Shown here: piece after piece, positions 148-7,846 of the stretch
Numbering within the stretch: the first letter of the stretch is position 1
Layout: every line of letters begins with the position of its first letter
NCBI GenBank assembly: GCA_002712305.1
Contig: PATE01000083.1
Coordinates: 1-7,846 of the forward strand
Source: Gemmatimonadota bacterium
GTDB taxonomy: Bacteria; Latescibacterota; UBA2968; UBA8231
Direction of reading: 5' to 3'
Length of the DNA: 7,846 nt
Program-made: the position numbers and the translations under genes
The notes under the pieces: model-generated
What the model was told of the DNA's origin: nothing
The model's database searches: none
The model's input: only the letters and a program-made list of their open reading frames with translations

Positions 148-1092
148 CTACTTGCTCTCTTCCATGTCATAGAGCATGGCAAAAAGCAGAAACTGCAACC
201 CCATCAAGACCATCAGCGCGCACACCACCGCTCGTGGTCCACTCACGCCCACTCCCTCGACCTGCTGATAGACAAGGTACCCGCCGAACACGGTTCCGAT
301 CGGGAGAAAGAGGAGACCAAACAGGTAAAAGAAGAGCAGTGGATGGAAGTCACGAACGAGATACCGGAAGAGAATTCGCCAGAAGAAATCGCGGATCAGC
401 ATGGGCGTCACCTTCAGCGCATATCGAAGTCCCTTGATCTGTGACTGCCTCTCTCCTTCCAGATAGATCGCTCGCCTGGGCACGTCGACGACCCGAAGAC
501 CGTACGCATTGAGACGAACGAGGAAGTCCATGGGATAGCCATATCCCTTCCACGCCGAATCCCAGTCCACAAGATCGATGGCACGTCGCGTGATGGCCGT
601 AAAGCCATCGACAACATCGAAAATCTTGTAGTATCCACTTGCCATCTTGGTCATGAAGGAGATCAGCGCATTGGGCAGCATCCGAGACCAAGGCATGTCG
701 TCGAGGCCGTCATCGGGCATGAGAAAGCGATTGCCTTTGCTGTAGTCGGCCTTTCCATCGATCAATGGATCCAACAGCGCCGGTATCTGCTCCATCGGCA
801 TTTGATGATCTCCACCGGTGACGACACAAAGGTCACACTGATCTTCACTGGCCCGTCGATACCCGGTGATAATGCCCTGCCCGACGCCTTGATTCGTTGC
901 GTGGTCGACAAGGACGATCCGAGGATCCCCGACAGCCTTCTGCCGAACGACATCCGCTGTGGAGTCGGTGCTGCAATCATTGACGACGTAGACGACATCG
1001 ATGATCTCGGGCACTGCATCCAGCGTGGGCCCGATCAGCCGTTCCTCGTTGTAGGCAGGAATGGTCAGTCCCACTTTGTTGTCTCGATACAC
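148..1092 (-). CDS. GT2 family glycosyltransferase with two C-terminal membrane segments
   Basis: A 314-residue GT-A fold enzyme of the dolichol-phosphate-mannose-synthase-like GT2 group, expected at the cytoplasmic face of the inner membrane. Visible motifs are IPAYNEE (11-17), VNDCSTDST (37-45), NQGVGQG (67-73), GGDHQMP (93-99) where D95 should be the metal/nucleotide aspartate, ADYSKGNRF (115-123) and the acceptor-side DGFTAITRRA (162-171). Hydrophobic stretches at about 241-264 and 287-308 look like two transmembrane helices, leaving a short charged tail. The start is GTG at 1092, preceded by GGAGAG with 4 nt spacing. It lies 18 nt after the oxidoreductase gene and 9 nt before the next GT4 gene. 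The family usually transfers a sugar from NDP-sugar to a polyprenyl phosphate or a glycan acceptor; which one is not visible. The DxD-region variant is discussed as a finding. Confidence 0.88.
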   Translation of the reverse strand: MYRDNKVGLTIPAYNEERLIGPTLDAVPEIIDVVYVVNDCSTDSTADVVRQKAVGDPRIVLVDHATNQGVGQGIITGYRRASEDQCDLCVVTGGDHQMPMEQIPALLDPLIDGKADYSKGNRFLMPDDGLDDMPWSRMLPNALISFMTKMASGYYKIFDVVDGFTAITRRAIDLVDWDSAWKGYGYPMDFLVRLNAYGLRVVDVPRRAIYLEGERQSQIKGLRYALKVTPMLIRDFFWRILFRYLVRDFHPLLFFYLFGLLFLPIGTVFGGYLVYQQVEGVGVSGPRAVVCALMVLMGLQFLLFAMLYDMEESK

Positions 1093-5067: not shown

Positions 5068-5589
5068 TCAGTCGGAGGCGGAACGCTCGTCAGATGCGGC
5101 GAACAGTGGTAAGTCACGGCGCAGTTGTGCCTCGAGTCGCTGATGGCAGGCCGCACAAACGCTGATGAGATGCTCGAGCTTGTTCGCCTCCACATTGCTG
5201 TGAAAGCGACGGTAAGGAATCCGGTGATGGACATGCAGCTTGCGTCCCATCTCAGCTTCCGAGACTCCACACTCCTGACAGCGACATTCATCGCGATAAC
5301 GGGCCTCCCGGGCCTGGATCTGCCAATTCCCCCCTCGTCGGTGCCGAGAACGTTTCCGATCGAGGCGGACGGCAAACGATTCTTCGGTCCGAGCCCAGGC
5401 CTGACGACAGGTGACATTGCAGAACTGTAGTGCCATGCCAGTGTCCTGCAGCCACGCGGACAGACTCACCGCGGTCCCGCAATGGGCACAACGGACAGAC
5501 TGTCGCTGGGCATCGGACTGCGTTGAAGATGCCTCAGCTCCTGTCAAAGACAGATTGAGCTGGGCAGCGCCACCCGATTCCTGCTCCAT
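5068..5589 (-). CDS. HNH endonuclease-like protein with an N-terminal zinc-binding motif
   Basis: A 173-residue protein with two cysteine-rich parts. Residues 34-61 form C34-xx-C37 ... C57-xxx-C61 (with FCNVTCRQAW), a probable small zinc knuckle or treble-clef. A basic stretch (KRSRHRR, 79-85) follows. The C-terminal part is a classic zinc-stabilised HNH domain: CQEC (C104, C107), LHVHHRIPYRRF (118-129, H121/H122), N136, and ISVCAACHQRLE (142-153, C145, C148, H149). The metal-binding and catalytic His-Asn-His set appears intact, so nicking or cleavage of DNA is plausible, but the target is unknown. It is a stand-alone protein, too short for a restriction enzyme with its own specificity domain, and no methylase, phage or intron gene is beside it. 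ATG at 5589 has GGGGG (5594-5598) 4 nt before it. It is the first gene after the predicted promoter at 5744-5773. Confidence 0.85.
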   Translation of the reverse strand: MEQESGGAAQLNLSLTGAEASSTQSDAQRQSVRCAHCGTAVSLSAWLQDTGMALQFCNVTCRQAWARTEESFAVRLDRKRSRHRRGGNWQIQAREARYRDECRCQECGVSEAEMGRKLHVHHRIPYRRFHSNVEANKLEHLISVCAACHQRLEAQLRRDLPLFAASDERSASD

Positions 5590-5790: not shown

Positions 5791-5808
5791 CGGCGCTATA
5801 AACCGCCG
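5791..5808 (-). terminator. weak stem-loop at the end of the envelope operon
   Basis: CGGCG and CGCCG arms with an 8-nt loop span the TAG stop of the lipoprotein gene. The stem is only 5 bp and no U-run follows, so it is a poor intrinsic terminator. Read-through from the envelope genes into the HNH-glycan operon is therefore possible. Confidence 0.2.
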
Positions 5809-6185
5809 TCTTTGAGGACCAGATCCACGTCGAACGTATCTCGGATCGTCAGTGCCTGCGCCACGACGGCGACTCGCCGCGGGCGGCCATCACCGGGGCT
5901 GATGAGTTGGGCGACGGCAAGGCCGTCCTGAGTCTGACTCTCGGCGGTGATCTCCCCCGCCGTCGTCGCGAATCGAACGATGGTCCCATCCTTCACAGGG
6001 TTGATGCCTTGAAGAACCGTCGCCCACACTTCGGCCGTGGCCGACGAATCCTCCGCTGACAACTGCGTGGGATAAGCCGAAATGTCCACTGTAAGGGTCG
6101 ATTCCTCACTATCGGTGGGCGCGACGGAAAAGGCGCACCCCGACAGCAGGAAAGGCATGGCGATGAGGAAACAGGTCAGACGCAT
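5796..6185 (-). CDS. small outer-membrane lipoprotein with one invasin-type Ig-like domain
   Basis: A 129-residue protein. A lipoprotein signal peptide MRLTCFLIAMPFLLSGC ends in the lipobox LSGC with C17 as the acylation site. Ala18 follows, so by the E. coli Lol rule it would go to the outer membrane. After a short Ser/Glu-rich linker, residues about 30-123 read as a single bacterial Ig-like (Big_1/invasin-type) sandwich: TLTVDISAYPTQLSA, AEVWATVL, VKDGTIVRFATTAGEI, GLAVAQL, then VAVVAQA. I place the start at ATG 6185 rather than at the longer in-frame start at 6230, because the lipoprotein signal begins there and it falls 5 nt after the preceding stop. No clear Shine-Dalgarno is visible, so translation is probably coupled to the barrel protein. 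Function is likely structural or a partner of that protein; this is inferred from context. Confidence 0.8.
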   Translation of the reverse strand: MRLTCFLIAMPFLLSGCAFSVAPTDSEESTLTVDISAYPTQLSAEDSSATAEVWATVLQGINPVKDGTIVRFATTAGEITAESQTQDGLAVAQLISPGDGRPRRVAVVAQALTIRDTFDVDLVLKDGGL

Positions 6186-6190
6186 GATGG

Positions 6191-7705
6191 TTACCGATAG
6201 TCCGCGTAGGCGAATTGGGGCGGGACCCAAGAGAAATGCTGCGACATGTTGTCGAGAAGATTGAACACCAGATCGTCCAGGGCTCCCTCGTGAACCTGCT
6301 GAATCTCCGCGGCTGACCGAGCGACCGTGATGTCACGACGATCTGCCGGAATCAGGCGAACGCGCTTGCGCAGACGCCCCTCTCCTTCGATCAACTGCGA
6401 CAGGGCTTCCATTTCGATCTTGGCAGGCGACGAAAACCACATCACACGATAACGCAGGCCGACCTTCACCTCTGTTTCAGGCACTTCGAACAGATAGGGT
6501 ACCCGCAGACCGGCGAAACGATTCTCCTTGTAGTGGGTCAAGGCGCCGGAGATGATGACGTCCAATCCCAACTTGCGTGCGATATCGCTCAACTGCTGTG
6601 GCCTCAAAGGCCCGTGTTGGGGTATTCCGGAATAGCGCGCCAGGTCAACAACTTCCAGACTGTCATGCGGATCCAACTCGTGACGCAATCGTTCAACGAT
6701 GCGCTCACCTGCCGAATACTCCTCAAATCCACCAAACTCCACGATCGCCAGTCGAAGCACCGAATCGGGCTCGTAGATCCTCTTCGGCGCAGCAGGTGGC
6801 ACGTAGGCCGTCGAGCGAGAAACGAACCTTCGCCGTGGACTCAGAAAGCCGTGGGTCCTGACGCCGAAGGTGAATTGCGATGGAGTTGGGTGATCGAGAA
6901 AGCCGATCTCCTGGTTGAATTCGAGCTCGATGCCGCGGAACATCTGAATTCTGGCGCCGAACTTCAGGATATTGGCCGCCCGTGACTGTGCCCCCAGTGC
7001 GACGCGTGCCTGATACTCACTGTTGAAGCTCACCCAGCGACTCGAACGTCCAATCTCGACACCGATGCCGTACACCAGTTGCGTCTCAACCGCCACATTG
7101 CCGGGCCTGAACAGACCCCCGTTCGCGTAGAAGGATACCTTCCGGAAGTGGACGTCGAGAAGGGCGTTGAGACCTATGTCGAGCCCGCCACTACTGAACT
7201 GCCTGATTCCACCGATGCTGTCGAGTGCGTGTTCACCCTTGTAGCCAAGGGGCAATCCCAGCAGAAGTTGGGAGGCTATATGTGTTCCGGCACGGATGCG
7301 ACCGGGTCTTGCCCACTTGATGCCCAACACCGGATCGCCCGAACCATACTTGTTCAGACCACCGGCTCCGTCCATGAGAAATGGCAAGACCATGGTGATA
7401 TCCATGGCATCGCTGAATCCGTATCCGAATCCGTAGTAACCGGTATAGATCGTCCCATTGCCGAGGTCGGGACTGACAATCGTCGCCGATCGATTCTGCG
7501 CACGAAGACGAAATCGTCCCTTGCCCAGCGGCTCAGCACTGGCGACCAGATCCAATCCCTGGCCTCCGGGAATCGTGATTGCCGAGTTCGTGGGTAGTTG
7601 CAGGAGCGCCAGATCCTGAGCCCCTGCCTCGGCGGCGAACCAAAGACTCACCAGCAGCAGCAATAACCTCAGGCTGTGCCCGATATGTCTTGTGAGTCTC
7701 ACCAC
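6191..7705 (-). CDS. exported protein: beta-barrel-like N-terminal half fused to a CsgG/TolB-N-like domain
   Basis: A 504-residue protein. Residues 1-29 are a Sec signal peptide (basic start, RLLLLLVSLWF core, cleavage likely after AEAGA). From about 60 to 290 there are alternating aromatic/hydrophobic strands with turns, such as GTIYTGYYGFGYGFSDAMD, GGLDIGLNALLDVHFRKV and ILKFGARIQMFRGIELEF, which looks like an outer-membrane barrel or barrel-like porin fold. A Pro/Arg-rich linker (about 291-316) leads to LRLAIVEFGGFEEYSAGERI (317-336), then LEVVDLARYSG and LSDIARKLGLDVIISGAL (372-389), the pattern of CsgG- and TolB-N-type periplasmic domains. The C-terminal end is IQQVHEGALDDLVFNLLDNM... 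and finishes with an aromatic-rich tail. The first GTG (7705) is only 3 nt after AGGA (7709-7712); the second GTG (7702) is 6 nt away and may be the true start. It lies 5 nt from both neighbours. The fold assignments are read from sequence patterns; the function is unknown. Confidence 0.75.
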   Translation of the reverse strand: MVRLTRHIGHSLRLLLLLVSLWFAAEAGAQDLALLQLPTNSAITIPGGQGLDLVASAEPLGKGRFRLRAQNRSATIVSPDLGNGTIYTGYYGFGYGFSDAMDITMVLPFLMDGAGGLNKYGSGDPVLGIKWARPGRIRAGTHIASQLLLGLPLGYKGEHALDSIGGIRQFSSGGLDIGLNALLDVHFRKVSFYANGGLFRPGNVAVETQLVYGIGVEIGRSSRWVSFNSEYQARVALGAQSRAANILKFGARIQMFRGIELEFNQEIGFLDHPTPSQFTFGVRTHGFLSPRRRFVSRSTAYVPPAAPKRIYEPDSVLRLAIVEFGGFEEYSAGERIVERLRHELDPHDSLEVVDLARYSGIPQHGPLRPQQLSDIARKLGLDVIISGALTHYKENRFAGLRVPYLFEVPETEVKVGLRYRVMWFSSPAKIEMEALSQLIEGEGRLRKRVRLIPADRRDITVARSAAEIQQVHEGALDDLVFNLLDNMSQHFSWVPPQFAYADYR

Positions 7706-7710
7706 GTATC

Positions 7711-7846
7711 CTAGTTCGTCGTCGACTGCAATTCGACGGCCAGATCGCCGATTGCCTGCAGCAGCTGACCCGCATCCTTGAAGCGGAAGTCCTGGTTCAC
7801 GAGCCGTACCTGAGCAGCAGCATTGTTGGGATCTGCGCGATCGACG
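7711..7846 (-). CDS. unrecognised gene, C-terminal 44 residues (cut by window edge)
   Basis: The open frame enters from the window edge and stops with TAG at 7711-7713, leaving 44 codons. It starts VDRADPNNAAAQVRLV and ends DAGQLLQAIGDLAVELQSTTN. The last 25 residues look like an amphipathic helix. I do not recognise a family. The stop is 5 nt before the first start codon of the barrel/CsgG-like gene, and its final codons carry that gene's AGGA, so it should be the upstream gene of the same envelope operon. That makes an exported or envelope role plausible but unproven. Confidence 0.65.
   Translation of the reverse strand, partial: VDRADPNNAAAQVRLVNQDFRFKDAGQLLQAIGDLAVELQSTTN

Follow-up and report, generated by a model that had tools for sequence, protein, structure and literature searches.

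A barrel-like domain fused to a CsgG-superfamily domain in Latescibacterota, and its possible part in shuttling or anchoring T9SS-tailed surface proteins

Several outer-membrane systems combine a barrel with a TPR protein. The barrel PorP, the TPR lipoprotein PorE and the type B cargo PG1035 form one complex (PMC9143113), and F. johnsoniae has five operons in each of which a type B substrate is encoded with a homologue of PorE and an SprF-like shuttle; in Bacteroidota, PorV serves type A cargo (PMC12618676). In PelBC, TPR repeats and a barrel are combined in PelB, with a ring of PelC lipoproteins beneath (PMC12141448). How T9SS cargo is retained at the surface outside Bacteroidota has been little studied; among open-licence papers we found none that connects Latescibacteria with T9SS, nor any describing the fusion of a CsgG-like domain to a barrel.

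We analysed a window of 7,846 bases, the first part of a 15,573-base contig from a Latescibacterota genome, which carries on its minus strand a gene for a protein with both of these domains (6191..7705; GTG start, stop codon at 6191-6193). The coding part excluding the stop, 7705-6194, specifies 504 residues. By sequence reading, residues 1-29 (7619..7705, minus) form a signal peptide, MVRLTRHIGHSLRLLLLLVSLWFAAEAGA, which ends in AEAGA before residue Q; this segment is a hydrophobic helix in the low-confidence AlphaFold2 model and, on the same reading, holds no lipobox cysteine, the mark of the CsgG lipid anchor. A barrel-like domain of ~255 residues follows (residues ~30-285; 6851..7618, minus), recognised by hydrophobicity alternation and a weak full-length profile match to barrels of the Phenol_MetA_deg type. 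An Arg/Lys/Pro-rich linker (residues ~286-316; 6758..6850, minus), which the alignment shows to hold 5-10 basic residues in all homologues, leads to a domain of the CsgG/LpoB/TolB_N superfamily (residues 317-504; 6194..6757, minus). The original prediction, of a signal peptide, barrel-like strands, a Pro/Arg linker and a CsgG/TolB-N-like domain in one protein, is thus borne out in its layout by the sequence, and the combination proved to be conserved across the phylum.

Profile-profile comparison places the C-terminal domain among CsgG relatives. Residues 317-504 matched the phylum's own CsgG-family proteins at an hhalign probability of 96% (E 2.6e-9) and a set of FlgT/CsgG-like paralogues with 98% (E 2.6e-14, 165 columns), the paralogues themselves matching the CsgG set at 97.9%. 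Controls were far lower, with 0.16% for the N-terminal domain against the CsgG set and 0.1-0.2% for cross controls that included the C-terminal domain against barrels. Pairwise hhalign E-values are uncalibrated against a database, and it is the contrast with these controls that carries weight; on that contrast, the core of the domain is, by profile, CsgG-superfamily. Searching with the profile of the fusion protein also recovered L059 (E 3e-6), a bona fide CsgG protein whose Pfam matches are CsgG (4e-14), LpoB (9e-8) and TolB_N (2e-5). In family searches, hmmscan of 17 homologues matched CsgG (PF03783) in four, with a best E of 0.0029, and TolB_N in one (E 0.019), while the window protein itself matched no Pfam family at E<=1, and a PF03783 search of its own genome matched only at contig C54 and not at the fusion gene. 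The CsgG part of the predicted identity stands at the level of the superfamily, and TolB_N as a specific identity was dropped because CsgG matches were commoner and stronger. LptE was also matched in 3 of the 17 homologues (best E 1.5e-4), and a bona fide CsgG protein likewise has a weak LptE match next to its CsgG match. AlphaFold2 modelling of the domain from two sequences gave a pLDDT of 36.9, too poor for a fold search; the low-confidence predicted secondary structure, E-H-E-H-E, would fit CsgG. When the PDB was searched by sequence, using the protein as well as profiles of its full length and of the C-terminal domain, there were either no matches or chance ones (E 0.11 and above). A separate CsgG-like family of about 310-390 residues (L053-L058, L060) was seen in the phylum, sharing a (G)NP/GDP..AGYKSY motif and ending in weakly FlgT_C-like regions under Pfam cut-offs.

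CsgG builds its pore from two hydrophobic membrane hairpins. At the corresponding positions the window protein has inserts of 19 and 25 residues, with Kyte-Doolittle means of about -0.5 and -0.8, and the inserts are short and polar in nearly all homologues. A CsgG-type pore formed by this protein is therefore unlikely, judging from its sequence.

The N-terminal domain shows the alternation expected of membrane strands. Across 17 aligned homologues, residues 30-300 contain 19 strand-like alternating-hydrophobicity peaks against 9.8 +/- 2.2 in shuffled columns, a count equalled in 1 of 500 shuffles at a peak threshold that was our own choice and untuned on known barrels; the C-terminal domain gave 8 peaks against 7.7 shuffled, which is no difference. 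Glycine makes up 14% of the N-terminal and 6% of the C-terminal domain. The best profile relative tried was the Phenol_MetA_deg (PF13557) type of outer-membrane barrel (hhalign probability 53%, E 1.4e-4, 205 columns), a score under any family threshold, and hmmscan found no match to that family in the window protein or the 17 homologues. PorP/SprF (PF11751) was ruled out as the identity of the barrel, with an hhalign probability of 0.4% and no match for PF11751 in the genome at E<=0.01. AlphaFold2 modelling of the full protein from one sequence reached a pLDDT of 33.5, too poor for a fold search. Together, these sequence features make a good but not proven case that residues ~30-285 form an outer-membrane barrel. 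The two ends of such barrels normally lie in the periplasm, and the C-terminal domain is therefore most likely periplasmic.

The fusion is widely kept. Homologues occur in 16 other genomes at 27-82% identity, all of them two-domain, one being cut by a contig start. Three more full-length members, first caught via the C-terminal domain (E 3e-14 to 1.5e-7), belong to a fifth family of the phylum, and their frames read as signal peptide, barrel-like region and C-terminal domain in the same order, so that the architecture is kept in 20 sequences from five families. Since the two domains have stayed joined below 30% identity, the fusion is probably under selection. Two further genomes (G012, G014) hold broken or misassembled copies; at L127:6588-7606 in G014 (contig C137), a start resembling the neighbouring tail protein A runs into the linker and C-terminal domain of the fusion, by internal deletion or misassembly. 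A scan of genome contigs, of a kind that finds only close relatives, returned one relative, L003, and the viral contigs and plasmids searched held none.

The gene lies in a tight run. Five nucleotides upstream ends the gene of a TPR lipoprotein, whose 3' end occupies 7711..7846 of the window and which continues to contig position 8424 (L002:212-925, minus); it has TPR matches and a lipobox-like LTACGGGTG, and neither an OmpA-type peptidoglycan domain nor a beta-propeller. Five nucleotides downstream starts a small Ig-like (Invasin_D3/Big_1-like) lipoprotein (5796..6185, minus, ATG at 6185; Invasin_D3 E 3.7e-4, under cut-off), copies of which, 52-80% identical, hold the same position in most loci of the family. 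Further upstream lie two giant secreted proteins with T9SS-type tails. Tail protein A (L002:5794-8061, minus; contig C2 about 13293-15560) runs off the contig after at least 755 residues and comprises a type I dockerin, a carboxypeptidase-regulatory-like domain and a T9SS type A sorting tail (TIGR04183, 35.7 bits against a cut-off of 23). Tail protein B has 1465 residues with Ig-like repeats, FlgD_ig over cut-off and CHU_C only below it. By eye the N-terminal region of B is cohesin-like, and with the dockerin of A this raises a possible cohesin/dockerin assembly outside cellulosome bacteria.

The order tail protein A, tail protein B, TPR lipoprotein, fusion is kept in four families wherever the contig reaches, with module proteins 41-89% identical within the family of the window and about 25-36% identical in other families. 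In two genomes of the fifth family, A, B and the TPR lipoprotein remain grouped and the fusion gene is found at another place in the same genome; in the third (L052), the TPR lipoprotein and fusion genes are adjacent. Downstream of the module follow GT2, GT4, methyltransferase, Gfo/Idh oxidoreductase and GT2 genes, and glycan genes recur in most loci. One GT2 of 314-317 residues ending in FAMLYDME/FAMLFDME (window 148-1092, minus; L124:4448-5401; L125:2279-3232) lies near the module even in a distant family, at 39% identity, and is steadier than the other glycan genes. An HNH-type protein with a Cys-rich N-terminus (window 5068-5589, minus; PF01844 E 1.9e-6, over cut-off) is likewise kept downstream in most loci at 39-80% identity, although nothing obvious connects it with surface proteins. 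In other families of the class, the place of the small Ig-like lipoprotein is taken by a gene directly after the fusion that encodes Wzy_C (O-antigen ligase) with TPR (L035:10302-12413, Pfam; L038:6076-8286).

The fusion and the TPR lipoprotein are inherited together. Among 64 genomes sampled from the phylum, with presence of the lipoprotein called at E<=1e-15, 20 have both, 3 have one only and 41 have neither (Fisher p 2.4e-13, uncorrected for kinship). The lipoprotein stands alone in G061, and the fusion alone in G012 and G014, as the broken copies. In genus g7, both genes are present in two genomes and absent from the others listed, a patchiness from which it follows that the pair comes and goes jointly. 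That the two are gained and lost together is the strongest functional evidence in this analysis. In G061, a protein with the barrel-end-like terminus LRWTIPF (L126:1749-3506) lies beside the TPR lipoprotein, close to a gene with a FlgD-like tail, and is perhaps another barrel in the same role. SprA_N was found in 60 of the 64 genomes, and in the genome of the window it matches at E 1.5e-38, marking an SprA-type translocon away from the locus, alongside 46 TIGR04183 tails over cut-off. Of the genomes that carry the fusion, G035 and G036 alone were found to have a PorP_SprF member over the cut-off.

A barrel, a TPR lipoprotein and a T9SS-tailed protein are also the components of the PorP-PorE system, which holds T9SS adhesins in Bacteroidota and is the nearest working parallel. 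On that basis we propose, tentatively and at slightly less than even odds, that the fusion and the TPR lipoprotein act as a dedicated shuttle or anchor for the two giant surface proteins with T9SS tails. The fusion protein would be an integral outer-membrane barrel whose C-terminus serves as a periplasmic docking domain of the CsgG/LpoB alpha/beta type. Cargo would use the SprA-type translocon to cross the outer membrane, its tail would be taken over at the cell surface by the barrel, and the CsgG-like domain and TPR lipoprotein would hold the complex from the periplasmic side. We infer the cargo relation of the tailed proteins from gene neighbourhood; the anchoring and the closure of the barrel are inferred as well. 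Adhesin display, one of the two roles originally predicted, would be compatible with this neighbourhood, in which surface proteins are the likely cargo. Several observations speak against a shuttle: by sequence the barrel is not a PorP/SprF homologue, the tails are nearer to type A (TIGR04183) or FlgD_ig than to classical type B, the TPR lipoprotein has none of the OmpA-type or beta-propeller domains of PorE, and in two distant genomes the barrel gene lies apart from the other module genes. The glycan genes directly downstream in most loci fit a polysaccharide role equally well.

These glycan genes keep alive the main rival, an exopolysaccharide exporter in the manner of PelB-PelC, in which the TPR lipoprotein and the barrel-CsgG protein would export whatever the neighbouring glycosyltransferases make. 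The fold of PelC is CsgG-like, so that the locus holds the same three elements as PelBC, divided differently among chains. The glycosyltransferases, methyltransferase and oxidoreductase downstream, the Wzy_C O-antigen-ligase-like gene directly after the fusion in another family and the polyprenyl-type GT2 that lies close to the module in the fifth family too would all suit such an exporter. However, with one barrel per CsgG-like domain, twelve such domains could not ring a single barrel in the manner of PelC unless barrels crowd, the ~255-residue barrel region matches no known polysaccharide exporter at E<=1 in either Pfam or NCBIfam, and the steadiest neighbours are T9SS-tailed proteins rather than synthases; no Pel synthase genes were seen near the fusion gene. 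On balance we regard export of a polysaccharide as unlikely.

LpoB and TolB_N bind envelope partners, and membership of their superfamily would also suit a role in envelope docking or regulation, with the outer-membrane protein reaching peptidoglycan enzymes or a periplasmic motor and the T9SS genes being mere passengers. The two genomes in which the fusion gene lies apart from the tailed proteins agree with this, but four families preserve the gene order with those proteins, the TPR lipoprotein is co-inherited even where the genes are unlinked, and the absence of the fusion from most genomes of the phylum argues against a core cell-wall function; we consider such a role rather improbable. Least likely of all, and in our judgement very improbable, is the self-contained secretion platform first envisaged for this protein, in which the CsgG-like domain would multimerise and either the barrel or CsgG-type hairpins would form the pore. 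CsgG homology and a barrel-like domain on one chain would be its basis, yet the polar inserts at the hairpin positions and the SprA translocon present in 60 of the 64 genomes speak against a channel of its own, and self-containment is unsupported because the TPR lipoprotein and the T9SS-tailed proteins are such constant partners.

Returning to the shuttle or anchor, we speculate that the locus may represent a second class of T9SS shuttle/anchor, one that arose independently outside Bacteroidota and in which an unrelated barrel with its own CsgG-type periplasmic docking domain, together with a TPR lipoprotein, holds a cohesin/dockerin-like surface layer; this broader proposal is possible but somewhat doubtful. 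If it is true, unrelated barrels would have been used on two occasions to fix giant adhesins to the outer membrane, and CsgG-type domains, otherwise seen in pores and lipoprotein rings, would have a further use as tethered modules for docking.

Set beside known systems, the protein shares features with several. Its C-terminal domain is homologous to the FlgT/CsgG-like paralogues of the phylum (e.g. L053-L058), which, instead of a barrel, have an additional stretch at the C-terminus that weakly resembles FlgT_C. Barrels of the PF13557 Phenol_MetA_deg type are similar in length and motif order to its N-terminal domain over the aligned columns, whereas the fusion always carries the C-terminal domain and scores under the family threshold. 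PelB-PelC likewise brings TPR repeats, a barrel and a CsgG-like domain to the outer membrane, with the domains split otherwise among chains and a barrel unrelated by family search. With the CsgG/LpoB/TolB_N superfamily it shares, by profile, the domain core and closing helix; here, unlike there, the domain is tethered to a separate barrel, and the protein has no lipobox and no evident hydrophobic hairpin inserts. From PorP/SprF with PorE the locus differs in a barrel that is non-homologous by profile and has a CsgG-superfamily domain fused on, in a TPR lipoprotein lacking propeller and OmpA domains, in its type A/FlgD-like tails and in a host that is not of the Bacteroidota, while both encode an outer-membrane barrel together with a TPR lipoprotein of the outer membrane and a large surface protein bearing a T9SS tail, and in both the SprA-type translocon lies elsewhere in the genome.
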